Of a DNA stretch of 47,775 nucleotides, positions 131 to 46,154 are shown in pieces. Under the pieces are notes generated by a model, which had not been told where the DNA came from, made no database searches, and saw only the letters and a program-made list of their open reading frames with translations. Origin of the DNA: Betaproteobacteria bacterium (GTDB taxonomy: Bacteria > Pseudomonadota > Gammaproteobacteria > Burkholderiales > SG8-41); assembly GCA_947486575.1 (NCBI GenBank), contig CANKUB010000020.1, positions 1-47,775 of the forward strand, written 5' to 3'. A program made the translations under genes and the position numbers. How positions within the stretch are numbered: the stretch's first letter is position 1; the number at the start of each line of letters is the position of its first letter.

Positions 131-155
131 ATTATGATTAAAAACAGATAGTTAA
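131..155 (+). repeat. Dispersed A-rich 3'-end repeat, copy 1 (divergent)
   Basis: This is the most divergent of twelve copies of the A-rich repeat, sharing TAAAAACAGATAGTTAA with the consensus. It lies in the 249-bp gap between the start of the flavoprotein and the end of the lipoprotein gene, both on the minus strand, so it has no plus-strand gene to its left. Nothing else was recognised in this gap. Confidence 0.6.
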
Positions 156-314
156 CCTATTGCGACAACGACCCTACGCGATGCATTCAGCAAAGCAATT
201 TCGAGCGTGAGCACGAATTCGCTGCTACTGCGTAGCACTATCACGCTCGCATTATGCGGGCTTATCGCGTTATCGGCCAGCGCAGCGAGGCTTCTCAATG
301 AGCGCTACACCAGG

Positions 315-815
315 CTACGGCGGGCTCGAATCGCCATCTATCGACGCGTCCATGATTACCCCTACACCCAGCGCTAATCCATCGTGACTAAAGCGGACGA
401 TAAATATCCCCGTGTTTGGTGATAGATCGGCACGCCATTCCCACGCAGCCTCGTTGCGGAACCGCGTGACCAGGCGCGGGCGGCCCAGCAGATCAAGTAC
501 CCCTGCCTCTGTGGTAACACCGGGCACCACTAAGTACAGGCGTTCATGCGTCAGCAACTGATCGGCGCTGCGCACCGTGCGGTTGTTGTCGATGGCGTAG
601 CGCCATGTAGCCACACCTTCGGGCCCGTAGACGTAATCCCAAAACTCGCCGCCCTGGGGATTGGGGCGCGTGTCGGTGGGTTTACCCAGCTTTTTAACCA
701 ACTCGTCGGCGGTTGTGTTCAGCGCAATGGCGCCAGGATTGGCACAACCGGCGAGTACGCCGATCAGTAGCGCAAGCGCAATGCCAAAGCGAAAGATTCG
801 TTTCATGATATCCAC
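315..815 (-). CDS. BamE/SmpA-like outer membrane lipoprotein
   Basis: A 166-residue protein with a type II signal peptide: positive start (MKR), hydrophobic stretch, then lipobox L-A-G-C with the lipidated cysteine at residue 24. The mature part shows two similar blocks, TADELVKKLGKPTDTR and TEAGVLDLLGRPRLVTRFR, each followed by an aromatic-rich strand (FWDYVYG, WEWRAD). That is the pattern of BamE/SmpA/OmlA-fold lipoproteins, here as an internal duplication. It probably sits in the outer membrane facing the periplasm. The start could also be the ATG three codons downstream. The exact role is unknown and it need not be the BamE of the Bam complex. Confidence 0.65.
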   Translation of the reverse strand: MDIMKRIFRFGIALALLIGVLAGCANPGAIALNTTADELVKKLGKPTDTRPNPQGGEFWDYVYGPEGVATWRYAIDNNRTVRSADQLLTHERLYLVVPGVTTEAGVLDLLGRPRLVTRFRNEAAWEWRADLSPNTGIFIVRFSHDGLALGVGVIMDASIDGDSSPP

Positions 816-949
816 TCCTGTAGGGCCCCAAAAGTACCTTACCGTCTATGCCAGACCTGCTCGCGGCTTGGACACGGGGTGCGCGTAAGCCGTCCAATCC
901 TGCAAAGTATACGCCGTGTATGTAGCTCGCGTTAATGCCACAATAACCC

Positions 950-1873
950 TTAAAACACTGACCGCCCACTGATCGAAGTCAGCATCTCCAGCGCAACCGA
1001 ACCCGCATACGAGTTGCCGCTCTCTTCCAGCGCCGGGCTCCACACGCAAATGCCGCATTCGCCGGGTATCAGCGCGACGATGCCGTCGCCCACGCCGCTT
1101 TTGGCAGGCAGTCCCACGCGAAACGCAAAATCGCCTGCCGCATCATAGGTGCCGCAGGTCAGCATCAGCGCATTGATGCGCTTGGCCGAGCTGGCGTCGA
1201 GGATTTTTTCATCCGACCACGGTACCGCACCGTGATTGGCGAGAAACGTCACTGCACGCGCCAGATCAACGCAGCTCATCTCAATGGCACAGTTGCGGCA
1301 ATAGGTTTCGATTACGTCATTCACGTTATGGTTGAGATTGCCAAAACTCTTCATGAAATTCGCCATTGCCGCGTTACGGTGCGAAGTGCCCTGCTCGGAC
1401 GCTGCCACTGCGCGGTCGTAGCTGATATCGTCATTATTTGCGAGCTTGCGAATGAACTTGATCAACGCGTTGCCCGCGCCACCCTCGCTGGCATAGTGCG
1501 TCAGCAGCATGTCGGTAACGACCAGTGCGCCAGCGTTGATAAACGGATTGCGCGGTTTGCCCCGCTCCTGCTCCAGTTGCACCAGTGAGTTAAACGGCGT
1601 GCCCGACGGCTCGCGCCCCACGCGTGACCAGATCGAATCGCCTTCCTGATGAAACGCCAGCGTCAGCGCAAACAATTTCGAAATCGACTGTATCGAAAAC
1701 GGTGTATCGGCAGCGCCTGCCTGATAGACGTTCCCATTGAGATCAACCATGGCGATGCCGAACTGATTCGCTGCCACTTTGGCCAGCTCTGGTATGTAGC
1801 TCGCCACACTGCCCGTGCCGATAATGGGTTTGACCGCAGCATGAACACGGTCAAGTATGCTTTGATAATCCAT
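950..1873 (-). CDS. glsA: Glutaminase
   Basis: A 307-residue serine-dependent beta-lactamase-like glutaminase that hydrolyses glutamine to glutamate and ammonia in the cytosol. The Ser-Lys dyad lies in FSIQSISKLF near residue 65; other conserved blocks are GREPSGTPFNS, NPFINAGAL, NFMKSFGN and PAKSGVGDGI. The length matches the family (about 305). The ATG at 1873 is preferred over the longer frame because GAGGAG lies about 8 bases upstream and the family begins with a similar residue. The gene appears monocistronic. The function is secure. Confidence 0.93.
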   Translation of the reverse strand: MDYQSILDRVHAAVKPIIGTGSVASYIPELAKVAANQFGIAMVDLNGNVYQAGAADTPFSIQSISKLFALTLAFHQEGDSIWSRVGREPSGTPFNSLVQLEQERGKPRNPFINAGALVVTDMLLTHYASEGGAGNALIKFIRKLANNDDISYDRAVAASEQGTSHRNAAMANFMKSFGNLNHNVNDVIETYCRNCAIEMSCVDLARAVTFLANHGAVPWSDEKILDASSAKRINALMLTCGTYDAAGDFAFRVGLPAKSGVGDGIVALIPGECGICVWSPALEESGNSYAGSVALEMLTSISGRSVF

Positions 1874-2152
1874 GCGTTGCTCCTCGCGTTTTGATGCGCG
1901 CCTAGCCCTTGCTGTGCGCACGATGTAGGTAGAAAAGATGGCGGATCATAGAGCACGCCTGTCACGGCGAACAGGTCAGTCGCGGGCAGTTTGCAAATTA
2001 CGCATTGCATGGTGTCGCATAGAGTTGACCGCGCACGAGACCGGGGATACTGTGCCCTTTAGCATCACGGAATGAAAACGGATATTTAAATCCATGCCAC
2101 GGTTTATCTTCATCGCAATATGTCACAACACGTCAGCGAAAGGGCGCTCACT

Positions 2153-3097
2153 ATGAAACAGCGTAATTTGGGCAACGCCGGTCTCAAGGTCTCTGTGGTT
2201 GGGCTCGGCTGCAATAATTTTGGTGGCGACCGTTGCGATCTTGAAGCCTCGCGCAAAGTCATACACAAGGCACTCGATCTGGGGATTACACTGATCGATA
2301 CTGCCGACACTTATGGCAATCGCGGTGAATCGGAGAAAATTCTCGGCGAATGTCTGGGTGAACGTCGCAAAGACATCGTGCTGGCAAGCAAATGCGGGCT
2401 GCCCATGGATGACACAGGCAACCTGAAAGGTGCTTCGCGCCGCTACATTCTGTCCGCCATCGATGCCAGTCTGAAGCGGCTCAAAACCGACTGGATCGAT
2501 CTCTACATCATTCACCGCCCTGATCCGCTCACACCAATCGAAGAAACCCTGCGCACGCTGGATGATCTGGTGAGGGCAGGCAAGGTTCGCTACAGCGGTT
2601 GCTCGACGTTTGCGGCATGGCAAGTGGTCGAAGCGCAGTGGACAGCGAAGCATCACAATCTGAATCACTTTGTCGCATGTCAGGACGAATACAGTCTGCT
2701 CAAACGCGGATTGGAGCGCGATCTTCAACCGGTCATGCAGAATTACGGCCTTGGCTTGATTCCGCACACCCCGCTGGCCTCAGGCCTGCTCACCGGTAAA
2801 TACCAGCGCAATGCACCGCTGCCTGCGGGCGCGCGCATGACCCGCGAAAAACGCCAGGCTGATCGCTGGATCAGCGATAGAAACTGGGGCACGGTGGAAC
2901 GGCTTAGCGCCTTCTGCCAGGCGCGTGGCCACACACTGCTGGAACTGGCGATGAGCTGGCTCGCATCGCGGCCCTTGGTAGCCAGCATCATCGCTGGCGC
3001 GACATCACCGGAGCAACTGGAGTTAAATACGCGCGCGGTCAACTGGCCGTTGACTGCTGACGATCTGGTTGAATTGAATAGCGTGCTTGAAGCATAA
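2153..3097 (+). CDS. Aldo/keto reductase
   Basis: A 314-residue (alpha/beta)8 NADPH-dependent oxidoreductase. The catalytic tetrad is visible: Asp and Tyr in LIDTADTYG, Lys in VLASKCG and His in YIIHRPDP. The C-terminal cofactor-binding part contains SIIAGATSPEQLELN. The start at 2153 is chosen because an AGGG box precedes it and the family motif RNLGNAGLKVS follows directly; an in-frame ATG at 2120 is also possible. The substrate cannot be inferred. A copy of the A-rich repeat begins two bases after the stop codon, and an MFS gene follows on the same strand. Confidence 0.88.
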   Translation: MKQRNLGNAGLKVSVVGLGCNNFGGDRCDLEASRKVIHKALDLGITLIDTADTYGNRGESEKILGECLGERRKDIVLASKCGLPMDDTGNLKGASRRYILSAIDASLKRLKTDWIDLYIIHRPDPLTPIEETLRTLDDLVRAGKVRYSGCSTFAAWQVVEAQWTAKHHNLNHFVACQDEYSLLKRGLERDLQPVMQNYGLGLIPHTPLASGLLTGKYQRNAPLPAGARMTREKRQADRWISDRNWGTVERLSAFCQARGHTLLELAMSWLASRPLVASIIAGATSPEQLELNTRAVNWPLTADDLVELNSVLEA

Positions 3098-3099
3098 TT

Positions 3100-3124
3100 A
3101 ATATCAATAAAAACAAGTAGTTAC
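3100..3124 (+). repeat. Dispersed A-rich 3'-end repeat, copy 2
   Basis: It matches the 25-bp consensus at 24 positions (A to G at 3117). It starts two bases after the stop of the aldo/keto reductase, on the sense strand, and ends eight bases before the start of the MFS gene. Confidence 0.9.
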
Positions 3125-3132
3125 GATTATCT

Positions 3133-4398
3133 ATGATAGGCATGCCGAATAAGCCACCAGCCCGGCATTTGTCAGGTGCGCGGCTCGTGACGGTGGTGTG
3201 TGCGGCACAGGTGCTGGTGCAGCTCGGCGCATTTTTCTGGCCGGCGCTATTGCCCGGCATGATGCTGCGCTGGGGATTGGCCAACAGCGAGGCGGGCTGG
3301 ATCACCGCTGCGTTCTATGGCGCGCACCTGCTTGCGGTGCCCCTGCTGGTGACGCTCACCGACCGCATCGACGCACGACGAGTGTATCTGTTTGGCGTGA
3401 GCTGCACGATCATCGCGCATCTGCTGTTTGGTTTGATAGCCGAAGGTTTCTGGTCGGCGCTGTTGCTACGCGGGTTGGCGGGCATCGGCTGGGCCGGCAC
3501 CTACATGACAGGCCTGAAGTTGCTGGCTGATCAAGTCGATAAAAAACTCATGTCGCGTGCGACGGCCGGACATGCCGCAAGCATCGGCATTTCTGGCGCG
3601 GCGTCGTTTGCGTGCGCTGATATTTTAAGCAATGCGTTTGGCTGGCAATCGGCGTTTCTGGTGGCCGCCGCAACCGCGATCATGGCGTGGTTGATCGTTG
3701 CCTTGCTGGTGCCACGCCGCAGTACGCCGCTGCCGCGCGCAGCGGACGGACAAGCGCTGTTTGATTTCAGACCCGTGTTTCGCAATCGCTCGGCGATGGC
3801 CTATGCGATAGCCTATTGCATCCACACGCTGGAGATGAACGCGCTGCGCGGCTGGGGTGTGGCGTTTCTGGCGTATGTGGCGGTAAGCACCGGCGCGGAG
3901 GCGCGTTTCTCGCCCACATACGTGCTGACCGCGCTGGGTGTGATTGGCACCTTCGCCAGTGTGTTTGGCAACGAAACCGCCATCCGCTGGGGCCGAGTGA
4001 AGCTGATCACGCTGGCAATGCTGGGTTCAATGATCGTGAGCATCAGCCTCGGCTTCATCGGCACGCTGTCGTATACCGTGGCCGTTGCACTGCTGCTGAT
4101 TTATGGATTTGTGGTGTGGCTGGATTCATCATCGCTGACGGCGGGCGCGGCGGGCACCGCAGAGCCCTCGCGCCGCGGCGCAACGCTGGCGGTGCATTCA
4201 ATGCTGGGCTACAGCGGCGGATTTGTCGGCCCGCTGATGATCGGTTATACGCTCGATCTCGCGGGCGGCGTTACACACGATGCGCGCTTCGCCTGGGGCG
4301 TATCGTTCGGGCTGATCGCTTTGTTGATGCTGGTCGCACTGGCGGCTTTCAGGATGATGCGGCCACGCGAGCTAAGCGGAGACCGGGGAACGGATTAA
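3133..4398 (+). CDS. MFS transporter
   Basis: A 421-residue inner membrane protein with about twelve hydrophobic segments in two halves separated by a more polar loop near residues 195-215 (PRRSTPLPRAADG). The loop between the second and third segments carries the MFS-type sequence LTDRIDARRVYLFG, a form of the GxxxDRxGRR motif. It probably exchanges a small organic solute with protons; the substrate is unknown. It follows the aldo/keto reductase by 35 bases on the same strand, with repeat copy 2 between. The start may be at 3133 or at the ATG three codons later. Confidence 0.85.
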   Translation: MIGMPNKPPARHLSGARLVTVVCAAQVLVQLGAFFWPALLPGMMLRWGLANSEAGWITAAFYGAHLLAVPLLVTLTDRIDARRVYLFGVSCTIIAHLLFGLIAEGFWSALLLRGLAGIGWAGTYMTGLKLLADQVDKKLMSRATAGHAASIGISGAASFACADILSNAFGWQSAFLVAAATAIMAWLIVALLVPRRSTPLPRAADGQALFDFRPVFRNRSAMAYAIAYCIHTLEMNALRGWGVAFLAYVAVSTGAEARFSPTYVLTALGVIGTFASVFGNETAIRWGRVKLITLAMLGSMIVSISLGFIGTLSYTVAVALLLIYGFVVWLDSSSLTAGAAGTAEPSRRGATLAVHSMLGYSGGFVGPLMIGYTLDLAGGVTHDARFAWGVSFGLIALLMLVALAAFRMMRPRELSGDRGTD

Positions 4399-4525
4399 GC
4401 CGGATTCGTCAATAGCCGCTTGCCGGTAAAGCACGCAATTTATTCGCTCCGGGTGAATTCGACGCGCGACATCGTTTTGCTATTTTCTTATTTTTGCAGC
4501 GTCGTGTGGTTGTGGCAGGTTTGCT

Positions 4526-4531
4526 TATAAT
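4526..4531 (+). promoter_or_regulatory. Probable -10 box of the Bug/CoA-transferase run
   Basis: A perfect TATAAT lies 47 bases before the start codon of the Bug gene at 4578. TG occurs two bases upstream of the hexamer, close to an extended -10. No good -35 hexamer is seen at 16-18 bp, so an activator may be needed. A start of transcription near 4538 would place the palindrome at 4537-4558 at the very 5' end of the mRNA. Confidence 0.45.
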
Positions 4532-4536
4532 GGGCT

Positions 4537-4558
4537 GCTAGTGCCACCCGGCACTAGC
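4537..4558 (+). promoter_or_regulatory. Perfect inverted repeat: operator or 5' mRNA hairpin
   Basis: Two 9-bp arms, GCTAGTGCC and GGCACTAGC, are perfectly complementary around a 4-base loop ACCC. The repeat begins six bases after TATAAT and ends 19 bases before the Bug start codon. It may be an operator overlapping the transcription start or a stable hairpin capping the mRNA. Confidence 0.55.
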
Positions 4559-4577
4559 AATATCTTCGGCAAAGACC

Positions 4578-5576
4578 ATGAATAAAACCGTTATCACAGC
4601 GCTGGCATTGGTTGGTATAGTCAGCCTGAACAGTATTGCAAACCAGGCATTTGCGCAGGGTGCAGCCGCTTATCCGCAGCGGCCGATCCGCATTCTCGTG
4701 GCGTTTCCGCCTGGTGGCGCTACCGACATTCTGGCGCGCATTCTGGCGGCGAATCTCACATCGGCGTGGGGACAGACAGTGGTGGTGGATAACCGTGGCG
4801 GCGCGGGTGGCACCGTTGGCTCCGATTTGGTGGCCAAGGCCACACCGGACGGCTACACGCTGATGATGGTGCCTAGCGGGCCGTTCACCATTAGCGCCAG
4901 CACCTATGACAATCTGCCATTCGACACGGCCACCGGCTTCGCCTCGATATCGCTATTGGCATGGGTGACCAATGCGTTCATCGTGGCACAGAATTCGCCG
5001 ATCAATACCGTGCAGGATCTGATTCGCATGGCAAAAGAAAAACCGGGCCAGGTCTCCAACTCGTCATCGGGTAACGGCTCGCTGCACCATCTGGCAGGCG
5101 AGGTGTTCAAAAGGCTGACGGGTACGCAAATGGTGCATGTACCCTTTAAGGGTGGTGGCCCGGCGCTGGTAGCCATTGCCACAGGTGAAGTAACTTTTGG
5201 CATGGCATCCATTCCTTCGGCAATGCCGTTGATTCAGGCCAAGCGTGTGCGGGCTATTGTGGTCACCAATGTAAAGCGCTCGTCTGCGCTGCCCGATGTG
5301 CCCACGATAGCTGAAGCGGGTGTGCCACTGCCGGCGGGGCTGGAGATGCGCGAGTGGTATGGCATGGTCGCGCCGCTCAAAACGCCCGAGCCCATCATTG
5401 CGAGGCTCAATACCGAAATGGTAAAAATTTTCAGGCGACCCGACGTGCAGGCGCGGCTGTCTGACATGGGCGCAGAGCCTGCGGGCAGCACGCCCAAAGA
5501 ACTGGCTGCACAAATCTTCAATGACGTCAGGACATGGGCCAAAGTCGTCAAAGAGACCGGTGTGCGCGCCAATTAG
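4578..5576 (+). CDS. Bug (TctC family) periplasmic solute-binding protein
   Basis: A 332-residue protein of the Bordetella-uptake-gene family: periplasmic, two-lobed binding proteins for carboxylates and related organic acids. A signal peptide with cleavage near AFA-Q (residue 26) is followed by the family signature YPQRPIRILVAFPPGGATD around residues 32-50, then VVVDNRGGAGGTVGSD and HVPFKGGGPALVA. It is the first gene of a plus-strand run with two CoA-transferase genes, an enoyl-CoA hydratase and a cupin-like protein, so its ligand is plausibly the acid that is then activated to a CoA thioester. No tctA or tctB is nearby. Confidence 0.9.
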   Translation: MNKTVITALALVGIVSLNSIANQAFAQGAAAYPQRPIRILVAFPPGGATDILARILAANLTSAWGQTVVVDNRGGAGGTVGSDLVAKATPDGYTLMMVPSGPFTISASTYDNLPFDTATGFASISLLAWVTNAFIVAQNSPINTVQDLIRMAKEKPGQVSNSSSGNGSLHHLAGEVFKRLTGTQMVHVPFKGGGPALVAIATGEVTFGMASIPSAMPLIQAKRVRAIVVTNVKRSSALPDVPTIAEAGVPLPAGLEMREWYGMVAPLKTPEPIIARLNTEMVKIFRRPDVQARLSDMGAEPAGSTPKELAAQIFNDVRTWAKVVKETGVRAN

Positions 5577-5617
5577 CGAAGCCAGATGCCGCAATCCAAT
5601 TTTATCAAGGAGTACCG

Positions 5618-6796
5618 ATGAATCAAGCGCTGACAGGCCTGCGTGTTATCGACATGACGCACAATCAGGCAGGCCCCGCCTGCGCACAGATGCTGGGGTT
5701 TTTGGGCGCCGATGTGATCAAGCTCGAAGAACCCAAAAGCGGAGACATCTCACGCTCGCAAAACAACGACGAACTGTTTTTTCTTGCGTTCAATGCCAAC
5801 AAGCGCAGCCTCACGCTGAACCTGAAGACGGACGAAGCCAAAGCGCATTTTAAAAAGATCATTGCGCAATCCGATGTGCTGCTGGAAAACTTCGGCCCCG
5901 GCGCGCTGGACCGGATGGGTCTGGGCTGGAAAGATTTGCAGAAAATCAATCCGCGCCTGATTTACGCCACCATCAAGGGGTTCGGTACCTTTGGCCCGCA
6001 CGCACACATGAAAAGCTTTGAACCGATTGCGCAGGCGATGGGCGGCGCCATGTGCGTCACCGGTTTTGCGGATGGACCGCCGACCTTCAACTGGCCCTCG
6101 ATTGGCGACAACGGCACAGGAATGCATATGGCCATCGCCATTCTCGCCGCGATAAACCAGCGCCATGCCACCGGGCGTGGACAGCATGTTGAAGTCTCAA
6201 TGCAGGAAGCCGTGCTGAACCTTATCCGCATCAGCCTGCGCGAGCACCAGCGCACTGGCGTTCCTGAGCGCAGCGGCAATCAGCTCGGCAAGACCGTGCC
6301 GGGCACAGCCTACAAATGCGCACCGGGCGGCCCCAACGACTGGGTGTACATCTATGCGCCGCCGCAGATGTGGGCTGCGGTATGCCAGGTGCTGGGGCGT
6401 CCCGAACTGGAACAGAATCTCTTGTTCAAATCGGCCAACGATCGCTGGACAAACCGCGCCGCGCTCGACGCCATCATGACTGAATGGACATCAGCCCGCA
6501 CCAAGCATGAGGTGATGAAGCTAATGGGTGACGCCGGCGTGCCCGCTGGCGCCTGTCAGGACACCAGCGAGGTTCTTGCCGACCCGCACCTGAAAGCACG
6601 CGACATGATCGTCGATCTCGAGTATCCGCCGCGCGGCAAATTCAAGACGGTGGGTTGTCCGCTGAAGCTCTCTGATTCACCCGCCAGTATTACGCGCCCA
6701 CCGATGCTGGGCGAACATACCGAAAGCGTGCTGGCCGAACTGTGTGGCGTGCAGCCCGCAGACGTTGCGCGCATGAAGGTGGGTGGTATCGTCTGA
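5618..6796 (+). CDS. CaiB/BaiF family CoA-transferase
   Basis: A 392-residue class III CoA-transferase, moving CoA between acids through an aspartyl-CoA thioester anhydride. The N-terminal Rossmann signature reads GLRVIDMTHNQAGPACAQML and GADVIKLEEP. The catalytic Asp is in SIGDNGTGMHM, followed by ATGRGQHVEVSM. The ATG at 5618 has AAGGAG five bases upstream and fits the family N-terminus; the longer frame from 5534 overlaps the Bug gene and is not credible. It lies 41 bases after the Bug gene and 47 before the fused transferase, as in an operon. The substrate pair is unknown. Confidence 0.9.
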   Translation: MNQALTGLRVIDMTHNQAGPACAQMLGFLGADVIKLEEPKSGDISRSQNNDELFFLAFNANKRSLTLNLKTDEAKAHFKKIIAQSDVLLENFGPGALDRMGLGWKDLQKINPRLIYATIKGFGTFGPHAHMKSFEPIAQAMGGAMCVTGFADGPPTFNWPSIGDNGTGMHMAIAILAAINQRHATGRGQHVEVSMQEAVLNLIRISLREHQRTGVPERSGNQLGKTVPGTAYKCAPGGPNDWVYIYAPPQMWAAVCQVLGRPELEQNLLFKSANDRWTNRAALDAIMTEWTSARTKHEVMKLMGDAGVPAGACQDTSEVLADPHLKARDMIVDLEYPPRGKFKTVGCPLKLSDSPASITRPPMLGEHTESVLAELCGVQPADVARMKVGGIV

Positions 6797-6843
6797 TGCA
6801 ACCGTAGTTACCATAATAGTTACCATCAGGGGGAGGCGTGAAC

Positions 6844-10014: not shown

Positions 10015-10074
10015 CCGCCAATCGGCAAACCACGCGCTCCGAACATCCCACATCCATTTCATGAGATCGTCAAA

Positions 10075-12850: not shown

Positions 12851-12875
12851 ATAAGTATTTGTTTTTATTAATATT
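12851..12875 (-). repeat. Dispersed A-rich 3'-end repeat, copy 3
   Basis: Read on the minus strand it has the TACTTA ending instead of TAGTTA, and AATATTAATAAAAAC at its 5' side. It ends seven bases from the stop codon of the TauD-type gene, on that gene's sense strand, and lies 33 bases before the amidohydrolase start. Confidence 0.88.
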
Positions 12876-13920: not shown

Positions 13921-13944
13921 TAAGTTATTGTTTTATTGAATATT
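13921..13944 (-). repeat. Dispersed A-rich 3'-end repeat, copy 4
   Basis: Twenty-four bases, with one A missing in the A run and ATAACTTA at the 3' side. It lies 47 bases downstream of the stop of the Bug gene at 13992, on its sense strand, and 87 bases before the TauD-type gene. Confidence 0.75.
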
Positions 13945-20036: not shown

Positions 20037-20061
20037 TTAAGTATCTGTTTTTATTGATGTT
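20037..20061 (-). repeat. Dispersed A-rich 3'-end repeat, copy 5
   Basis: Minus-strand copy with ACATCAATAAAAACAGATAC and a TACTTA-type end. It lies 38 bases downstream of the stop codon of the antitoxin remnant at 20100-20135 on the same strand, and 79 bases before higB. The nearest intact gene to which it is downstream is the Bug gene at 20227. Confidence 0.88.
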
Positions 20062-23288: not shown

Positions 23289-23313
23289 GTAACTATTTGT
23301 TTTTATTGATATT
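23289..23313 (-). repeat. Dispersed A-rich 3'-end repeat, copy 6 (exact consensus)
   Basis: Identical over 25 bases to copy 10 at 41560-41584. It lies 34 bases downstream of the stop of the amidohydrolase at 23348, on the sense strand of that gene. Confidence 0.92.
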
Positions 23314-26208: not shown

Positions 26209-26233
26209 TAATTCAATAAAAACAAATACTTAC
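26209..26233 (+). repeat. Dispersed A-rich 3'-end repeat, copy 7
   Basis: Plus-strand copy with the TACTTAC ending. It lies in the 290-bp gap between two minus-strand genes, so it is not sense to either. A plus-strand frame ending RYLK stops at a TAA formed by the first three bases of the repeat, but the frame has no recognisable homology. Apart from the heptamer array nothing else was found in the gap. Confidence 0.9.
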
Positions 26234-31139: not shown

Positions 31140-31164
31140 TTAAGTATTTATTTTTATTGTTATT
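31140..31164 (-). repeat. Dispersed A-rich 3'-end repeat, copy 8
   Basis: Sense-strand copy overlapping the stop codon (31160-31162) of the Kef-type antiporter gene; one C to T change gives AATAAAAATAAATACTTA. The antiporter stop codon TAA lies within the first six bases of the repeat. Confidence 0.88.
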
Positions 31165-35251: not shown

Positions 35252-35276
35252 CTAACCATTTGTTTTTATTAGTATT
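35252..35276 (-). repeat. Dispersed A-rich 3'-end repeat, copy 9, inside the end of rpoZ
   Basis: The repeat, in the sense orientation, covers the final codons of rpoZ and its TAG stop (35252-35254). It encodes most of the C-terminal ILIKTNG. Changes from consensus are AATACTAATAA at the 5' side and TGGTTAG at the 3' side. Confidence 0.85.
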
Positions 35277-36650: not shown

Positions 36651-36662
36651 CCTCGCCGCCCA

Positions 36663-37365: not shown

Positions 37366-38253
37366 TTATGCGTCGCCCTTCAACACCAGCGCCCGCTGAT
37401 ACAGATCATTGCGATTGCCACCGGTAATCTTCACCGCCAGCGCCACCGCCTGTTTCAGCGGCAATTCTTCCAGCAGCGCCTGCAATGTTTGATCTAGCGC
37501 AGCAGCATCGGGCACGCTTGCCGCAGCACCCTCAACCACCAGCACAAATTCGCCTTTCGTACGATGTTCGCTCGCCGCCAGCCACGCGGCAGCATCACCC
37601 ATCGTACACACGTGTGTTTCCTCGAATAATTTGGTCAATTCACGCGCGATCATGATGCGTCGCGCAGCGCCCAAGGTGGCAGCGAGATCGTCGACGCACT
37701 CGGCCACACGATGCGGCGCTTCATAGAACACCAGCGTATACGGCAGCGCATCCAGCGCCTTGAGTGCGGTGCGCCTTGCGCTGCTGCGCGCGGGTAAAAA
37801 GCCATAAAACAAAAAATGCGGCGATAAAAATCCGCTGGCGGAAACCGCAGCCGCAGCGGCATTCGCCCCCGGCACTGGACACACACAGTAGCCCGCCGCG
37901 TGCGCTGCTGCCACCAGCCGCGCACCGGGATCGGATATGCCCGGCGTGCCTGCATCGCTCACCAGCGCAACATTTGCGCCTGTGGCCAGCAGCGCCAGCA
38001 CGTCGCCTGCTGCGCGCTGCTCATTGTGCTCATGTACTGCCATGAGGCGCGCGGTGATGCCGTAGTGATCGAGCAAGCGGCGTGTCACGCGCGTGTCTTC
38101 GGCGGCGATGTTCCCGGCACTCGACAAAATCTCGATGGCGCGCGCGCTGATATCGGATAAATTTCCTATGGGTGTCGCCACTACATATAATGTCGGCTTA
38201 CTTGTTCCGGGGCTGCTTGGCGGCGAATCATGCACAGAATTGCTCGTTTCCAC
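37366..38253 (-). CDS. rsmI: 16S rRNA (cytidine-1402 2'-O) methyltransferase
   Basis: A 295-residue tetrapyrrole-methylase-fold enzyme that 2'-O-methylates C1402 of 16S rRNA. Motifs: LYVVATPIGNLSDISARA near residue 22, AAEDTRVTRRLLDHYGI, NVALVSDAGTPGISDPG and FVLVVEG. The 5' end overlaps the start of the divergent lpoA-like gene by 24 bases if the ATG at 38253 is used, or by 6 with the GTG at 38235; the order rsmI / lpoA divergent is the usual one. Confidence 0.92.
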   Translation of the reverse strand: METSNSVHDSPPSSPGTSKPTLYVVATPIGNLSDISARAIEILSSAGNIAAEDTRVTRRLLDHYGITARLMAVHEHNEQRAAGDVLALLATGANVALVSDAGTPGISDPGARLVAAAHAAGYCVCPVPGANAAAAAVSASGFLSPHFLFYGFLPARSSARRTALKALDALPYTLVFYEAPHRVAECVDDLAATLGAARRIMIARELTKLFEETHVCTMGDAAAWLAASEHRTKGEFVLVVEGAAASVPDAAALDQTLQALLEELPLKQAVALAVKITGGNRNDLYQRALVLKGDA

Positions 38254-39444: not shown

Positions 39445-39459
39445 CCCGCGTGTGAATCC

Positions 39460-39801
39460 GTGAATAATCGCGGCAAAGACGCCGAAGCGCACGCGGCGCG
39501 TTTTCTTGAGGAGCAGAGGCTGAAAATCGTCGAGCGCAATTATCATTGCCGCTACGGCGAAATCGACCTCATCGCGCGCGATGGCACAACACTGGTTTTT
39601 GTTGAAGTGCGCGCGCGCAAATCCAGCGCCTTTGGCGGTGCAGGGGCCAGCATCACCGCCAGCAAACGCCAAAAACTCACTCGCACCACACTGCATTATA
39701 TGGCAGGCATCAGCCGCACGCCGCAGTGCCGCTTTGATGCGGTGTTGCTCACGGGTGACGATGGGCCGGCGGAGTGGATACGGGATGCTTTCGGAACGTA
39801 A
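39460..39801 (+). CDS. yraN: YraN/UPF0102 family nuclease-like protein
   Basis: A 113-residue protein starting with GTG at 39460. The family motifs are AEAHAARFLEEQRLKIVERN, YGEIDLIARDGTTLVFVEVR (the PD-(D/E)xK-like E-D-ExR pattern) and SKRQKLTRTTLHY. Predicted DNA- or RNA-cleaving fold but biological function unknown. It lies 15 bases after the lpoA-like gene and 54 before diaA. Confidence 0.9.
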   Translation: MNNRGKDAEAHAARFLEEQRLKIVERNYHCRYGEIDLIARDGTTLVFVEVRARKSSAFGGAGASITASKRQKLTRTTLHYMAGISRTPQCRFDAVLLTGDDGPAEWIRDAFGT

Positions 39802-39810
39802 AGGACCTAA

Positions 39811-40445
<635 letters not shown>

Positions 40446-40446
<1 letters not shown>

Positions 40447-41018
40447 TGCGTAAATTTACGATTGGGTTATTCATGGTCATCGCTGCAACCACGCTGTTAA
40501 GCGGCTGCGCGGCAGTGGTGTTGGGCGGGGCAGTAGGCGGCGGCGTGTTGCTGGCCGAAGACCGGCGCACAGTGGGCACGGTAACCGAAGATCAAGGCAT
40601 AGAAGTCAAAACGTCCAGCCGCATCGGTGATCGCGTTCGCGATGCGCACATTAACATCACCAGTTTTAACCGGCAGGTGCTGCTCACTGGCGAAGTGCCC
40701 ACTGCAGCGGCGCGTGAAGAAGCCGAACGCGCAGCGCGCGGCGTTGAAAACGTGCGGGGTGTTTTCAACGAATTGCAGGTCGCAGCCAAAACCGCGCTCA
40801 GCGTTCGCACCAATGACGCTTATCTGACATCCAAAGTCAAAGCGCGCTTTGTGGATGGCCAGAAATTCAGTCCTGTTCACGTGAAAGTGATTACGGAAAA
40901 TGGCGTGGTGCATCTGATGGGCCTGGTTAAACGCGCCGAGGCCGACGCCGCCACTGAAGTTGCGCGCACCACCGGCGGCGTGCAAAAAGTGGTGCGCTTG
41001 TTTGAGTATCTTGATTGA
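40446..41018 (+). CDS. dolP: BON-domain outer membrane lipoprotein DolP
   Basis: A 190-residue lipoprotein: hydrophobic start then LLSGC with the lipidated Cys at about residue 19. Two BON domains follow: about residues 48-115 (SRIGDRVRDAHINITSFNRQ, LLTGEVPTAAAREEAERAAR) and about 125-190 (YLTSKVKARFVDGQKF, NGVVHLMGLVKRAEADAATE). DolP protects outer membrane integrity at the division site. Its start overlaps the diaA stop (TAATG), so translation is coupled. Confidence 0.92.
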
Positions 41019-41058
41019 GCGTGCGGATAAAAAATACTGAGCTTACTTTGCGCAATGT

Positions 41059-41580
41059 GTGAGCACCTTGAACTATCCGCTCCCCGCCTTTGAACAAAAG
41101 ACTCTCGATCCATCGTCTCTGGCGGTTCTGGCGGCACGCGTGCAATCGTTGCCGCGCCCCCTGGTGTTCACCAACGGCGTGTTCGACGTACTGCATCGCG
41201 GCCACGTTACCTATCTCGCACAAGCACGTGCGCTGGGCGCGAGTCTGATCGTCGCGCTTAACAGCGATGCATCAACACGCCGCCTAAACAAAGGTGACGA
41301 CCGGCCGATTAACCCACTTGCAGACCGTGCTGCGGTGATTGCGTCGCTTGAAGCGGTGAGCGCTGTTACCTGGTTTGACGCAGACACACCGCTTGCGTTG
41401 ATACTGGCGCTGCGACCCGATGTTCTAATCAAAGGCGGCGACTGGAAACCTGCCGATATTGTGGGCGCAGCAGACGTATCGGGCTGGGGCGGAACCGTGC
41501 ATTCGATACCGTTTTTACATCAGAAATCGACCACCGCCCTGCTGGACGCGATACGAAATAATATCAATAAAAACAAATAG
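41059..41580 (+). CDS. rfaE2: D-glycero-beta-D-manno-heptose 1-phosphate adenylyltransferase
   Basis: A 173-residue single-domain nucleotidyltransferase of ADP-heptose synthesis for LPS inner core. The nucleotide site is VFTNGVFDVLHRGHVTYL (H-x-G-H near residue 47) and VLIKGGDWKPADIVGA lies near 127. It corresponds to the C-terminal half of HldE; the kinase half is not in the window. Start GTG at 41059. The last residues NNINKNK and the TAG stop come from repeat copy 10; the sequence DAIRNN before them is near the usual end. Confidence 0.92.
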   Translation: MSTLNYPLPAFEQKTLDPSSLAVLAARVQSLPRPLVFTNGVFDVLHRGHVTYLAQARALGASLIVALNSDASTRRLNKGDDRPINPLADRAAVIASLEAVSAVTWFDADTPLALILALRPDVLIKGGDWKPADIVGAADVSGWGGTVHSIPFLHQKSTTALLDAIRNNINKNK

Positions 41581-41584
41581 TTAC
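41560..41584 (+). repeat. Dispersed A-rich 3'-end repeat, copy 10, inside the end of rfaE2
   Basis: Exact consensus, identical to copy 6. It encodes the last codons NINKNK of rfaE2 and its TAG (41578-41580) and ends three bases before the end of the convergent SPOR gene. Confidence 0.92.
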
Positions 41585-41587
41585 AGA

Positions 41588-42253
41588 CTATCCCGCTGCA
41601 CAACTTACGGCCTTCAAGTCGGTGCCGGGATTGGCCGCTTTCAGGGCGCTTAATTTAGCCACTGTTGCGTCAGTAGGCTCACGCACATAGAATGCCACGC
41701 GCCGAAAAAATGCCTCCCGCACTTCAATGGTGGCTTCGGTTACGCCGCGCTTTTGCAGGCCTGCCAATAAATTTTGTGCTGCCTCTTCGGTGCGAAAAAT
41801 ACCCAGCGAAATCGCGTTTCGCCGTTGTGGCGGATCCGGCACGATGGAGTAATCGGTAACGCCATAGCCCTTCAGCCGCTCGGCCACGCGCTCTACCTCG
41901 CCCCGTGTCTTTAGCGGCGGAATCATCACCCAATGCCCATCCAGATCGGCAACGACACGCCTCACCTGCGCGGCTGGCAATCCCAATTCGGCCATAGCGG
42001 CATCACCACGCGCGGCTTCGGCGCCGATGAAAACGCCCCACTCCAGACAGGCCGCACCCTTGACGCCCGCCGCAATTTTTTTACTTGCGGTAGCGGCGGA
42101 TATTGACAGCGGTGCCCCCACCAGGCGAATTTTTTCGGGCGTGATCTCGACTTGCCTTATATGCTCTTGCGCACTTACGGCTGTGCGCAGATAGTTGGCC
42201 CACGCAAAAAATGCTGCGTTGCCCAGCAGCAACACCAGAAAAACCGCGCGCAT
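41588..42253 (-). CDS. SPOR-domain-like inner membrane protein
   Basis: A 221-residue protein with an N-terminal membrane anchor (VFLVLLLGNAAFFAWANYL, residues 4-22). The C-terminal half has HWVMIPPLKTRGEVERVAER and SLGIFRTEEAAQNLLAGLQK, matching the two strand-helix units of SPOR domains that bind denuded peptidoglycan at the septum. It lies 9 bases downstream of coaX on the minus strand, a place where betaproteobacteria often keep a SPOR gene. The exact role is unknown. Confidence 0.75.
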   Translation of the reverse strand: MRAVFLVLLLGNAAFFAWANYLRTAVSAQEHIRQVEITPEKIRLVGAPLSISAATASKKIAAGVKGAACLEWGVFIGAEAARGDAAMAELGLPAAQVRRVVADLDGHWVMIPPLKTRGEVERVAERLKGYGVTDYSIVPDPPQRRNAISLGIFRTEEAAQNLLAGLQKRGVTEATIEVREAFFRRVAFYVREPTDATVAKLSALKAANPGTDLKAVSCAAG

Positions 42254-42262
42254 TATTTCAAC

Positions 42263-43039
42263 TCACTTTTTAGCATCTGCAACTCTTGCAACTTTTTCAA
42301 TAGATTCTCTGGCAATTTCACGCAAGCCTTCGAGCACCAGATTATCCACGAGCTCGACCCTCACGTTAAGCTGTGGTTTTATCAGCGCCGCAGCGCCGCC
42401 GGACAGCACCACCAGCGGCCCGTCACCCTGGCTGCCTTGCCCGGTTTCTTCCATATAACCGCGCATACGCTCTATTGCACCACACAGCGCATTCACCGCG
42501 CCGCTCATGATGGCATCCGCCGTGTTATCCGGAAAATAATAAAACGCACCCGCTTGCTGGCGCAATTGCGCTGTGCCGGTATCCAGCGCCTGACGCATTA
42601 AATCCAGCCCCGGCACGATAACACCGCCCAGAAACACCCCTTCGCCAGAAAGCGCATCAACTGTCATCGTGGTCCCTGCGTTTACCACCACGCATGCACG
42701 TTTGTATAGACGCCAGGCGGCGATTAACGCTGCCCAGCGGTCTGCGCCCAACTGCGCAGGATCGGCATAGGAGCTTTTTACGCCGCATTGTTGCGCGCAC
42801 CCCTGCACCCAAACGGGCGCTGTGGCATACATTGCCAGTGCTTGCGTGATTGCAGCGCGCACGGCGTCACCCGCCACATTGGATACCACAATGTGCGCTG
42901 GCGCGGGCAAACCGTTCAATGCGTCACGCAAGCTTGCAGCAGCCGTTGTTTCGATCCACGCGCGCCGCAGCCAGCCGTTGGCGTCAGCCATGCCCCACTT
43001 GATGCGGCTGTTGCCGGCATCAATCGTGAGCATGTTCAT
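42263..43039 (-). CDS. coaX: Type III pantothenate kinase
   Basis: A 258-residue ASKHA-fold kinase doing the first step of coenzyme A synthesis. MLTIDAGNSRIKWGMADANG is the phosphate-1 loop; GADRWAALIAAWRLY and VVVNAGTTMTVDAL follow near residues 98 and 117, and GGVIVPGLDLMRQAL near 140. CoaX enzymes need a monovalent cation. It overlaps birA by four bases and is translated after it; the birA-coaX pair is common in betaproteobacteria. Confidence 0.93.
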   Translation of the reverse strand: MNMLTIDAGNSRIKWGMADANGWLRRAWIETTAAASLRDALNGLPAPAHIVVSNVAGDAVRAAITQALAMYATAPVWVQGCAQQCGVKSSYADPAQLGADRWAALIAAWRLYKRACVVVNAGTTMTVDALSGEGVFLGGVIVPGLDLMRQALDTGTAQLRQQAGAFYYFPDNTADAIMSGAVNALCGAIERMRGYMEETGQGSQGDGPLVVLSGGAAALIKPQLNVRVELVDNLVLEGLREIARESIEKVARVADAKK

Positions 43040-44028
43040 GCGCCACGACCCGTAGCGCGCAAACTTACGTCACCACTGTGATACGGCCGCACGCCGCGCG
43101 CGGTTTCCAGCAACAATGCGCCATCGTCGCGCACGCCACGCGCCAAACCGCTTTCGCTGATGCCGCTGCCTAAAGTCAGCCGCACCGCGCAGCCCTGATG
43201 CACATGACGGCGCTGCCAATCGTCGCGAAACACCTGAAAGCCTGAACGCTCAAACGTGAGCAGCGTTGTATTGAGTTCCGTCAGCAACGTCGCCAGCAGT
43301 TGATTGCGATCAACCGCGTGCCCACATACGGTTTCGATATCCGCCGCAGCCTGATCAATGCGCACGCCGGTTGCCGCTGGTAGGCGCACGTTGATGCCCA
43401 CGCCGATCACCACGGCGCTCGGCCCCAGGGCGTCGCCCTGCATTTCAATTAATATACCCGCGACTTTGCGCCCACGCCACAACACGTCGTTGGGCCATTT
43501 CAAACCCACAGCGCCCGCATCACTCAGCCCCATGGCTTCGAGCGCGCGCACCACGGCCAACCCCACTGCAAGGCTCAAGCCCGCCAACGTTGCAGCACCC
43601 TGCGAAAACCGCCACAACACAGAGAATGTCAGCGCGCCGCCCACCGTCGCATACCATGGCCGGTTCATGCGGCCACGTCCTGCGGTTTGCCACTCGGCCG
43701 CAAGTACGCTGGCGTGCGGCGCGCCCGCCTGGGCGCGTTGCAGCAATAGCGTGTTGGTGGAGTCGGCTTCATCCACAATTTCCACGGTAAACGGCGCAGC
43801 CTCACCCAATGCTTGCGCAATACGCCCCGCGTCGAGCATAACCAGCGGGCGCGCCAGCCGGTAACCGCGTCCGCGCACGCTGAATACGTCAATCCCGGCT
43901 GCTTCGATCTCCTGAACGGCATTCCACACGCTGGCCCGCGACACACAGATATCTTGCGCGAGCATCGTGCCCGCATGGAAATCACCGTCAGCCAGCCGCC
44001 GCAGTACGTTGTAAGCCAAAGCTTTCAT
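43036..44028 (-). CDS. birA: Biotin-protein ligase / biotin operon repressor
   Basis: A 330-residue bifunctional BirA: N-terminal helix-turn-helix (HAGTMLAQDICVSRASVWNA, about 17-36) followed by the ligase domain with DEADSTNTLLLQRAQAGAPH, AEWQTAGRGRMNRPWYA (biotin-binding GRGR-type loop) and LKWPNDVLWRGRKVAGILIE, and a C-terminal SH3-like part (GVRDDGALLLETARGVRPYH). It attaches biotin to BCCP. The gene is divergent from the Bug gene at 44155. Confidence 0.93.
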   Translation of the reverse strand: MKALAYNVLRRLADGDFHAGTMLAQDICVSRASVWNAVQEIEAAGIDVFSVRGRGYRLARPLVMLDAGRIAQALGEAAPFTVEIVDEADSTNTLLLQRAQAGAPHASVLAAEWQTAGRGRMNRPWYATVGGALTFSVLWRFSQGAATLAGLSLAVGLAVVRALEAMGLSDAGAVGLKWPNDVLWRGRKVAGILIEMQGDALGPSAVVIGVGINVRLPAATGVRIDQAAADIETVCGHAVDRNQLLATLLTELNTTLLTFERSGFQVFRDDWQRRHVHQGCAVRLTLGSGISESGLARGVRDDGALLLETARGVRPYHSGDVSLRATGRGA

Positions 44029-44154
44029 ATAGCGCCAAGGATACTACGATCGCTGAATTTGCCGCTCGCACCACGCGTTCGACAGCGCCCAGCAGCGCGG
44101 CTACACTAGATCACCAAACGGACACGTTCCGCCACAATTCAGGAGGAGATTCCC

Positions 44155-45135
44155 ATGCGTTTATTGATCGCTGCCGCGACAGCCGGTCTGGCTACTTTGG
44201 CCAATCTGGCCGCCAGTCTGCCTGCCGCTGCACAGAACTGGCCCGCCAAACCGATACGCGTGATCATTCCCTATCCGGCGGGCGGCACCTCCGATATCCT
44301 CGCGCGCATGATCGGCCCCGAACTCACCCGGGCGTGGGGGCCGCAGATCATTGTCGATAATCGCGTCGGCGCCAACGGTGCCATCGCGATGGAAATTACC
44401 TCGCGTGCGCCCGCCGACGGTTATACCACCGTGCTCAATGATCTGGGCAATCTGGCAATCAGCCCCAGCATGTACACCAAACTGCCGTTCGATATCCTCC
44501 GCGATTTCACGCCGGTGGCGATGATTTCATACTCCGCACACCTACTTGCCATACATCCGAGCGTACCGGTGAAAACCGTGCAGGAGTTGATTGCCCTCGC
44601 CAAAGCCAGTCCCGGCAAACTGAATGTGCCGGTGGGCCTGGGTGCGGCGGTACATGTTGCCGCATTGTCGCTAGAGCAGCGCACCGGTGTGAAATGGGTG
44701 TACGTGCCCACCAAGGGCGGACAAGCTTCCATCATGACAGTGGCCACGGGCGAAGGTGATCTGCTGTTCATGGGCATGCTGCAAACCATGCCACACGTGC
44801 GCGCGGGCCGCTTGAAAATTCTTGCGGTGTCCAGTGAAAAACGCGACCCCAATCTGCCCAACGTGCCCACGGTTGCCGAAACACCAGGACTCGCGGGCTT
44901 CGTCACCGGCTCGTATCAGGGCATCATGGGGCCGGCGAAAATGCCACCCGACGTACTCGCCAAATTCAACACTGAAGTCAACCGCGTACTGGGCCTGCCC
45001 GAGATCAAGGAAAAACTCGCGTTGCACGGCACGGTGCCGCTGCCGATGTCGCCACAGGAAATGGGCAAATGGCTGGTCGCGGAGAAAGACCGCTGGGCAG
45101 GCGTGGTAAAGGCCAGCGGCTTTAAAATTGATTGA
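44155..45135 (+). CDS. Bug (TctC family) solute-binding protein
   Basis: A 326-residue protein with a strong AGGAGGAG before the ATG. Signal peptide to about residue 26 (LPAAA-Q), then WPAKPIRVIIPYPAGGTSD, IIVDNRVGANGAIAME and YVPTKGGQASIMTVATG, where PTKGGQ departs from the common FKGGGP. The C-terminus AEKDRWAGVVKASGFKID matches the dead Bug fragment at 46043. It stands alone between birA and a VapBC pair; repeat copy 11 begins 11 bases after the stop. Confidence 0.9.
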   Translation: MRLLIAAATAGLATLANLAASLPAAAQNWPAKPIRVIIPYPAGGTSDILARMIGPELTRAWGPQIIVDNRVGANGAIAMEITSRAPADGYTTVLNDLGNLAISPSMYTKLPFDILRDFTPVAMISYSAHLLAIHPSVPVKTVQELIALAKASPGKLNVPVGLGAAVHVAALSLEQRTGVKWVYVPTKGGQASIMTVATGEGDLLFMGMLQTMPHVRAGRLKILAVSSEKRDPNLPNVPTVAETPGLAGFVTGSYQGIMGPAKMPPDVLAKFNTEVNRVLGLPEIKEKLALHGTVPLPMSPQEMGKWLVAEKDRWAGVVKASGFKID

Positions 45136-45146
45136 TGTAATCTAAA

Positions 45147-45171
45147 ATAATCAATAAAAACAAATAGTTAT
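45147..45171 (+). repeat. Dispersed A-rich 3'-end repeat, copy 11
   Basis: Plus-strand copy ATAATCAATAAAAACAAATA followed by GTTAT. It lies 11 bases downstream of the Bug gene ending at 45135 and 101 bases before vapB. Confidence 0.9.
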
Positions 45172-45237
45172 ATACTTTAGCCAAATTACCAGCCAAATTA
45201 CCTGGCGGCGCCAATTCGAAGATAAAGTGGTAATATG

Positions 45238-45269
45238 CCCATATAAAATAATATGGGTGCCCATATAAT
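45238..45269 (+). promoter_or_regulatory. Operator and probable promoter of vapBC
   Basis: An inverted repeat CCCATAT (45238-45244) and ATATGGG (45251-45257) encloses six A/T bases, and CCCATAT occurs once more at 45260-45266. TATAAT at 45264-45269 lies three bases before the vapB ATG (45273), so the transcript could be almost leaderless, or another -10 such as TATAAA at 45242 is used. The ribbon-helix-helix antitoxin probably binds here. Confidence 0.55.
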
Positions 45270-45272
45270 ATT

Positions 45273-45509
45273 ATGAAAACCACTATCGACATTTCCGATG
45301 CGCTGTTCAATGAGGCCAAGCGGCGCGCTGCCAGGAACGGAATCACCTTGCGCGCGTTGATCGAACAAAGTCTCAGACAAACATTCAAATCCGTTGACGA
45401 TCCGGCAGCATTTCAACCACGCGATGCCCGCGTAAAGGGCAAGGGCCTGACAACGGCAGCGCGCGCGTCGGGATGGCGCGCCGTGCTTGATGCCGCAAAC
45501 GAGCGATGA
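45273..45509 (+). CDS. vapB: VapB-type ribbon-helix-helix antitoxin
   Basis: A 78-residue antitoxin. The N-terminus MKTTIDISDALFNEAKRRAA and RNGITLRALIEQSLRQ form the ribbon-helix-helix DNA-binding part; the disordered tail (GLTTAARASGWRAVLDAANE) should wrap the toxin. It overlaps vapC by four bases (ATGA). No ribosome binding site is visible before the ATG. Confidence 0.85.
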   Translation: MKTTIDISDALFNEAKRRAARNGITLRALIEQSLRQTFKSVDDPAAFQPRDARVKGKGLTTAARASGWRAVLDAANER

Positions 45510-45943
45510 TAGCGGTTGATACCAATCTGCTCGTCTATGCGCATCGCGCTGATCACGAATGGAATGACGCCGCGCACGCTTGCCTGACATCCTTGATGAC
45601 GGGCCGCGCCGCGTGGGCGATACCGTGGCCTTGCCTGCACGAATTCATTGCCATCGTGACACGCGCAAACATTTTCAAGCCGCCTTCAACCTTGAAGCAG
45701 GCCATCCATCAGCTTGTGAGCTGGACCGAATCACCCAGCTTGAACCTGCTCGGGGAAACACCGCAGCATCTAACCACGCTGACACGGATTGCGCTGCACG
45801 CCAAAGTGCAGGGCGGGGCAATCCACGACGCACGCATCGCCGCGATTTGCCTCGATCACCACGTCACCGAGTTATGGTCAGCAGACCGCGATTTTTCGCG
45901 TTTTCCAGGGTTACGGGTGCGTAATCCGCTGGTGGGACAATGA
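45506..45943 (+). CDS. vapC: VapC-type PIN-domain toxin
   Basis: A 145-residue PIN endoribonuclease. The acidic residues are in MIAVDTNLLVYAHRAD (Asp5), PWPCLHEFIAIVTRAN (Glu) and GGAIHDARIAAICLDH (Asp near 107), with WSADRDFSRFPGLRV near the end. It is translated together with vapB. VapC toxins cleave tRNA or rRNA when freed from VapB. Confidence 0.88.
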   Translation: MIAVDTNLLVYAHRADHEWNDAAHACLTSLMTGRAAWAIPWPCLHEFIAIVTRANIFKPPSTLKQAIHQLVSWTESPSLNLLGETPQHLTTLTRIALHAKVQGGAIHDARIAAICLDHHVTELWSADRDFSRFPGLRVRNPLVGQ

Positions 45944-46042
45944 ACAGGCGCGGCAGTAATGCCATTCGGCGCGACCGATGCGGTTCCTTCGTCACCGGTA
46001 TACTACGTATTGCGCAATGCCAATGTTCGCAGGATGTGGTGA

Positions 46043-46129
46043 GTGCAGCAAACCGAATCCATCGCGCTGGCAGCAGAGAAAGATCGCTAGACCAAGGTGG
46101 TGAAAACCATCCGCTTTAACACTAATTAA
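46043..46129 (+). pseudogene. 3' relic of a Bug (TctC) gene
   Basis: The frame reads VQQTESIALAAEKDR, a TAG stop at 46088-46090 where relatives have Trp, then TKVVKTIRFNTN and a TAA at 46127-46129. AEKDRWTKVVK is the C-terminal helix of Bug proteins (compare AEKDRWAGVVKASGFKID of the Bug gene ending at 45135). Upstream the frame is closed by a TGA at 46040-46042 and nothing of the rest of the gene was recognised. Confidence 0.7.
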
Positions 46130-46130
46130 A

Positions 46131-46154
46131 ATAATCAATAAAACAAATAGTTAC
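46131..46154 (+). repeat. Dispersed A-rich 3'-end repeat, copy 12
   Basis: Plus-strand copy with one A missing from the A run (ATAATCAATAAAACAAATAG then TTAC). It begins one base after the old stop codon of the dead Bug gene and ends three bases before the end of the convergent CsgG-like gene. Confidence 0.9.

Follow-up and report, generated by a model that had tools for sequence, protein, structure and literature searches.

A recurrent AT-rich word in an uncultured Burkholderiales family is probably a DNA uptake sequence

Why should one short A-rich word recur about a dozen times in less than 50 kb of bacterial DNA, mostly close to the ends of genes? The stretch in question, referred to here as the window, comprises 47 775 nt from a Betaproteobacteria bacterium (GenBank assembly GCA_947486575.1, contig CANKUB010000020.1, positions 1 to 47 775), and a sequence-only reading of it had proposed that the word is a genome-wide 3′-end element. 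We conclude instead that the word is probably a DNA uptake sequence serving natural transformation within an uncultured family of Burkholderiales, working like, although not descended from, the DNA uptake sequence (DUS) of Neisseria and the uptake signal sequence (USS) of Haemophilus. Such self-DNA tags are described as known only from the Neisseriaceae and Pasteurellaceae (PMC12616744). A literature search, whose scope left most subscription papers and all bioRxiv preprints outside, gave nothing that points to this word: the papers met on uptake sequences in Betaproteobacteria or Burkholderiales deal, to judge by their titles, with Neisseria or Neisseriaceae. Within the same scope, 14 letters taken from the core, and likewise their complement, matched only literature on apicomplexan parasites.

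The word was defined by a core of 18 letters, for which the window was searched without gaps at ≤ 3 mismatches, using dinucleotide shuffles as the control. This gave 11 matches where the shuffles lead one to expect 0.01, and none of 100 shuffles reached 11. Throughout the assembly to which the window belongs (G000; 5.35 Mb in 282 contigs) we found 429 core matches with ≤ 2 mismatches, compared with one for the reversed control, and when either C or G was allowed at core position 14 the number of copies rose to 529, again with one for the control. At 12 copies per 47.8 kb the window is denser than its own genome. A logo built from 226 matches (not de-duplicated, and including a few loci from outside the family) extends the word to a consensus of ∼27 bp, AAAAWTATC-AATAAAAACAAATA[C/G]TTA, in which core position 14 is C in 51 % and G in 47 % of matches. 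Stop codons lie within it on the forward strand (TAA at −10 to −8 and at core positions 3–5, TAG at core positions 13–15), and its opposite strand begins with TAA. Pieces of the word were the most over-represented 10-mers in five of the seven genome samples compared (G000, G001, G013, G018 and G019), and were not the top 10-mers in the remaining two, G009 and G020.

Copies with zero, one, two and three mismatches numbered 17, 16, 22 and 27 in 448 kb of G000 (reversed control 0, 0, 0 and 1), 16, 17, 16 and 9 in the G001 sample, 13, 5, 4 and 9 in G019, 8, 6, 2 and 2 in G018, 2, 6, 10 and 13 in G013, 0, 1, 5 and 2 in G020, and 0, 0, 2 and 1 in G009 (reversed 0, 1, 0 and 0). In four of the six carrier samples (G000, G001, G019 and G018), perfect copies were about as numerous as single-mismatch copies or more so, and an excess of perfect copies in USS and DUS has been described as unlike what is seen for regulator sites (PMC1626085).

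In order to discern how widely the word is distributed, we scanned 74 members of a single Burkholderiales family, spread over nine genera (g1–g9, the window belonging to g1). The word is common in three genera, sparse in a fourth and near absent elsewhere. All 14 genomes of g1 gave matches, with only nine (control three) in G009 and 135–919 in the other 13; the sole g6 genome held 459 copies, the 21 genomes of g7 each held 37–261, and the three of g8 held 16–39. Four of the 15 g2 genomes had 1–13 copies and the others none, whilst the 20 genomes of g3, g4, g5 and g9 had zero or one copy each. We refer to the 38 genomes of g1 (minus G009), g6, g7 and g8 as carriers; in these, copy counts were similar on the two strands, and density ranged from ∼5 to 167 per Mb. 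The carriers known here are metagenome assemblies, and the family is uncultured. Beyond the family, three of 16 order-level relatives had one or two copies and the others none, and a 22-mer of the word was found with one mismatch in two of 368 other class members. The exact 22-mer occurred in at least 113 stretches of named GTDB genomes. Among the 80 matches listed, 75 were titled Burkholderiales, Betaproteobacteria or Bordetella parapertussis (this last surely mislabelled), the other five being unrelated singletons from two Pseudomonas, a Minwuia, a Desulfovibrio and a Rhodospirillaceae member. These outliers were taken as chance, since two in 368 scales to ∼7–10 exact hits expected by chance among 85 000 genomes. 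The exact 22-mer gave no match in viral contigs, nor did a 121-base Pseudomonas query against plasmids.

Four of the five outliers appear, by eye from open reading frames and sequence, to lie upstream of genes, and the site of a widespread regulator was considered for them and dropped when they were set down as chance hits. The two Pseudomonas copies (L107:710–731 and L090:6995–7016) occupy intergenic regions that resemble each other, the variable position being C in one species and G in the other; these, too, were taken as chance.

We compared the distribution of the word with that of competence genes. ComEC (PF03772) was matched in 68 of the 74 family genomes, these being 37 of the 38 carriers and 31 of the 36 non-carriers, and DprA in 70 of 74, including all 38 carriers (G058 only by two partial matches below the cut-off). 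PilQ, for which the comparison covers genus g1, was present in all 14 genomes, in 13 of them above the cut-off. The lowest density in g1 belongs to G009, at 2.2 per Mb compared with 28–167 in the others, and this genome, 97 % complete, is the only one of its genus with neither a DprA match nor a PF03772 match; the full-length ComEC model gives only a partial match of 27 bits. A GspH-type pilin was likewise unmatched in G009, which retains PilQ above the cut-off. In g7 the lowest density of 21 genomes, 12.3 per Mb, is that of G061, where the GspH-type pilin gave no match and ComEC occupies two separate open frames of a single contig (G061:C4:59862–61692). We regard G009 as one clear case and G061 as a weaker one, a link with competence that is suggestive rather than proof.

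The copies in the window itself are as follows.

Copy 1: 137–154, plus strand; two mismatches in the ungapped core search.
Copy 2: 3106–3123, plus strand; one mismatch; directly 3′ of an aldo-keto reductase gene.
Copy 3: 12852–12869, minus strand; C form; 3′ of a taurine-dioxygenase-like gene.
Copy 4: 13921–13937, minus strand; AATAAAACAATAACTTA, a 17-base relative with a one-base deletion, outside the matches of the ungapped search.
Copy 5: 20038–20055, minus strand; C form; the closest called sense gene stops ∼171 bp ahead.
Copy 6: 23290–23307, minus strand; perfect core.
Copy 7: 26215–26232, plus strand; C form; antisense relative to the called genes on both sides.
Copy 8: 31141–31158, minus strand; C form; 3′ of a kefC-type gene.
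Copy 9: 35253–35270, minus strand; provides rpoZ with its final codons and its stop, with the spoT start ∼30 bp beyond.
Copy 10: 41566–41583, plus strand; perfect core; gives an hldE-type adenylyltransferase gene its stop codon; kept in congeners.
Copy 11: 45153–45170, plus strand; perfect core.
Copy 12: 46136–46153, plus strand; lacks one A; three mismatches when aligned without gaps.

What the sequence-only reading had described here is borne out in part. Eleven of its twelve copies were recovered without gaps, the twelfth (13921) being only a shortened relative, and several of the starts it gave take in leading bases before the core. Copies 6 and 10, said to be identical over 25 bases, in fact share 26, on opposite strands, and eight copies do lie in sense behind intact genes, within ∼60 bp of the stop codon or overlapping it (by the gene caller, with rpoZ added). 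The proposal that the word is genome-wide is confirmed by the hundreds of copies and the 10-mer ranking, and the absence of dyad symmetry or of a normal terminator agrees with folds of six of the 12 copies with their flanks, which shared no hairpin (z-scores 0.50, 0.30, 0.04, −2.12, −1.07 and −1.38). That no copy lies inside a gene is apt as a description of the window, except that the copies at 35253 and 41566 enter coding sequence, and it does not extend to the wider set of loci described below.

To place the word relative to genes on a larger scale, we used a simple gene caller, which missed rpoZ, on 238 loci holding 343 unique copies; 13 loci were excluded (five order-level, five outlier, two class-level singletons and one duplicate of the window). 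Many of the loci were selected for holding a copy, which raises the counts but should leave orientation unbiased. Tandem gaps held 125 sense and 81 antisense copies, divergent gaps 50 and convergent gaps 48, whilst 24 copies were inside called genes and 15 at locus edges were left unclassed; a smaller count on a subset of the same loci gave a like picture. Among gaps of ≥ 25 bp, a copy was present in 35 of 182 convergent, 193 of 924 tandem and 49 of 266 divergent gaps, shares that are inflated by the choice of loci. On single contigs of G000, copies occur on both strands. In tandem gaps the sense and antisense counts were 22 and 14 for copies overlapping the stop codon, 46 and 21 at 1–11 bp from it (p 0.003), 21 and 21 at 12–30 bp, 18 and 11 at 31–80 bp, and 18 and 14 beyond 80 bp. 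Past the neighbourhood of the stop codon, we read these counts as those of a word that disregards gene direction. On this reading the word settles on gene ends because it contains stop codons, and the sense skew at 1–11 bp probably arises because the extended consensus, as judged from the logo, holds a TAA. As such, stop codons in the window largely account for the 3′-end reading: the near-universal sense orientation is real there and gives way to 125 against 81 in tandem gaps at large, the sense excess is significant only at 1–11 bp from the stop, and copies also occupy divergent gaps and reading frames. Of the outcomes that the earlier reading had named as refuting it, equal frequency on the two strands is observed, and copies do occur inside genes, albeit more rarely than outside them.

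We read 15 of the 24 in-gene copies singly. Of the other nine, four lie, to judge from their positions, in the pyrC genes of further genomes, and the remaining five lie < 60 bp from a called start and may be mis-called. The host genes that could be named by NCBIfam or Pfam were uvrA (in G000), cofGH (FO synthase), murF, bioF and pyrC, with further copies in genes for an FAD-dependent protein, a carboxyl transferase and a thiamine-pyrophosphate enzyme; the G001 copy sits in the same UvrA loop as that of G000. Among the 15, all six copies read in phase 0 lack the TAG and all four in phase 1 lack the TAA. Since these in-gene copies would be translated, it is hard to see them as terminators.

The CofGH gene (L179:9837–12197), belonging to the F420 pathway, scores above the NCBIfam cut-off in a Burkholderiales genome and carries a copy of the word. 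In the window's genome the UvrA match at G000:C3:54947–57328 belongs to an open frame that, at 1891 aa, is roughly double the normal size and has the word in a loop, and a second UvrA-like match is found at G000:C15:16132–17754.

Four loci allowed word-bearing and word-free relatives to be compared. The UvrA loop, from the Walker A motif to DQTPIG, measures 46–52 residues across 22 family genomes (in G001 as counted by eye). Within it the word stands at 0–3 mismatches in each of the 10 g1 carriers sampled and in G019, at 4–6 in G018, G055, G046 and G060, and at 8–10 in seven others, comprising G009, two g8 carriers (G041 and G020) and four genomes from g2 and g9 (G066, G021, G077 and G014). 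In PyrC, a nine-residue stretch encodes the word with 1–5 mismatches in nine genomes; the word-free PyrC of G009 has other residues there in a segment as long as that of seven of the nine carriers, the L173 and L174 proteins having a few additional residues beside the word. The 3′ end of rpoZ bears the word (0–2 mismatches) in three of the 11 congeneric genomes compared, one of them that of the window; among those without it, G003, G004 and G012 have other sequence of the same length, and some others are one codon shorter. Lastly, at the site of copy 10 (41566) the eight listed congener rows show 0, 0, 0, 1, 2, 3, 4 and 5 mismatches, with flanks ∼69–80 % identical. Judging from these alignments, gain and loss of the word at all four loci seem to proceed through substitution and not insertion. 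The same kind of comparison has shown that Haemophilus USS are not insertions (PMC1626085).

What else might such a word be? Its AT-rich sequence and its preference for gaps could make it a by-product of A-rich gene ends, arising by chance or composition, but this is refuted by 11 copies against 0.01 expected in the window, 429 against one in the genome, and the scarcity or absence of copies in sister genera. A sense-direction RNA signal at 3′ ends, or a terminator that works without a hairpin, would account for the sense copies behind the eight intact window genes, for the many copies that abut stop codons and for the overall 125 to 81 in tandem gaps. We hold it to be very unlikely, given that the sense excess is significant only at 1–11 bp and vanishes at 12–30 bp, that copies lie inside genes and between divergent genes, that the copy between rpoZ and spoT leaves only ∼30 bp before the next start, and that the six folds share no hairpin, with terminator-like sites in 17.8 kb of the window at chance level (23 compared with 23.3). 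For uptake words, terminator roles have been rejected on grounds much like these (PMC1939737). Hundreds of near-identical and mostly intergenic copies also recall a miniature mobile repeat of the REP or MITE kind, spread by copying. The likelihood of this is just as low: at the four loci examined for insertion, the word-free homologous segments of UvrA, PyrC and rpoZ are not one unit shorter, no hairpin is shared among the six folds, and there are in-frame copies in conserved enzymes. The word does resemble intrinsic terminators and REP elements in being mostly intergenic and often near gene 3′ ends, and differs from both in lacking a shared hairpin in the six folds and signs of insertion at the four loci, and in occurring inside genes as well. 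Two binding motifs were also tried. An Hfq-type A-R-N RNA motif was dropped since the word is orientation neutral, and the TTR part of the integration host factor (IHF) consensus was unmatched by eye.

The main rival is a binding site for an intracellular protein that organises, repairs or marks the chromosome independently of direction, such as a nucleoid protein, a Chi-like site or a domain boundary. This would suit the neutrality of the word to context and orientation, its retention at the orthologous place of 41566 (0–5 mismatches in the eight congener rows) and its spacing, none of 69 spacings in stretches of G000, G001, G018 and G019 being < 500 bp; the C-or-G position (51 and 47 %) would, moreover, suit minor-groove reading. 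Nevertheless, we consider it unlikely, if less so than the preceding alternatives. The word holds ∼33.5 bits in G000, far above the 14.3 bits needed for addressing 529 sites, although the former figure is an over-estimate inflated by choosing copies through a mismatch cut-off. In addition, copies range from 135 to 919 among the word-bearing congeners, and the word is nearly absent from G009, where competence genes are missing (a comparison confined to those genes).

A DNA uptake sequence remains our preferred explanation, and two known systems come closest to it. Like the USS of Pasteurellaceae, the word is present in very many copies without orientation bias, prefers non-coding DNA without being limited to it and has a very strong consensus; a point-substitution origin and AT-rich stretches are also common to both, and the USS extends up to ∼32 nt (PMC1626085, PMC12616744). 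It differs in having no GCGG core (PMC12616744) and no closely spaced pairs among the 69 spacings, whereas USS and DUS include some closely spaced inverted ones (PMC1626085). With the DUS of Neisseriaceae it shares restriction to a family, many copies on both strands, and betaproteobacterial hosts with ComEC and DprA, and in genus g1 PilQ; the sequences are unrelated, the word having no CTG core and ∼27 bp compared with up to ∼13 (PMC12616744).

Several observations, however, weigh against an uptake role. Only 24 of the 328 classified copies (7 %) are in called genes, compared with 65 % for H. influenzae USS, and the ∼5–167 copies per Mb fall short of the roughly one per kb of USS and DUS (PMC1626085). 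The word is longer than the DUS and has no G+C-rich core, and clear dialects were not found, since variant preferences in samples of 8–83 copies revealed none that was clearly linked to the tree. Perfect copies are fewer than single-mismatch ones in G013 (two compared with six) and G020 (zero compared with one). As for the competence genes, the GspH-type pilin is unmatched also in the word-bearing G008 and G011 (62 and 84 % complete), G046, at 91 % completeness, keeps 145 copies with ComEC unmatched, and the ComEC of the window's own genome (G000:C60:5969–7798) contains one in-frame TAG; to reconcile G046 and G000 with an uptake role, one would need to assume recent loss or faults of assembly. 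ComEC is moreover not sufficient for the word, because 31 of the 36 non-carriers have it, and loss of the word in G009 cannot be told from never having had it, because the UvrA tree leaves that genome unplaced.

Other over-represented words were seen alongside this one. One, TGTAGCC[AG]TC, occurs 22 times in 448 kb of G000 and in the window at 4857, 15723, 16418, 20934 and 28328, and TGTAGCCATC occurs 14 times in each of the G009 and G013 samples. This looks like coding sequence common to many genes and not like a repeat of the present kind; the genes seem to encode a shared DGYT stretch, and tricarboxylate-receptor (Bug/TctC) proteins are a candidate for their products. In the g8 genome G020 (L271:2484–7341), strong over-representation is seen for words such as GTTCAAGGTTC, with 25 occurrences in 400 kb, and GTTCAAAGTT.

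If the word is an uptake sequence, a DNA receptor on the cell surface, most likely a minor type IV pilin, would bind it on free double-stranded DNA, and the pilus would draw the DNA in through PilQ. One strand would then pass ComEC, and DprA would hand it to RecA for recombination. Fragments bearing the word would be taken up more often, such that alleles drifting towards it would spread, and copies would build up where AT-rich sequence is tolerated, namely at gene ends, in short gaps and in variable protein segments. Copy number, neutrality to strand and context, origin by substitution at four loci, restriction to the family and the presence of competence genes in nearly all carriers, with the word near absent in the congener that lacks them, are observed here; the uptake role, its receptor and uptake bias as the driving force are inferred. 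With almost the same confidence, we believe that this is likely to be a third, independently evolved family of uptake sequences, consisting of a 27 bp AT-rich word without a G+C core and with a putative receptor on the pilus. The spread of this word through uptake would have altered the ends of genes and segments of proteins across a family, among them those of UvrA, PyrC and RpoZ, and probably of MurF and BioF.

A third unrelated word would mean that bacteria have evolved the recognition of their own kind in gene exchange more than once and do so repeatedly, and the family would offer a new system in which receptors might be found through co-variation of word and pilin, as described for USS (PMC12616744). 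It would also predict natural transformation in bacteria that are seen here only as metagenome assemblies.

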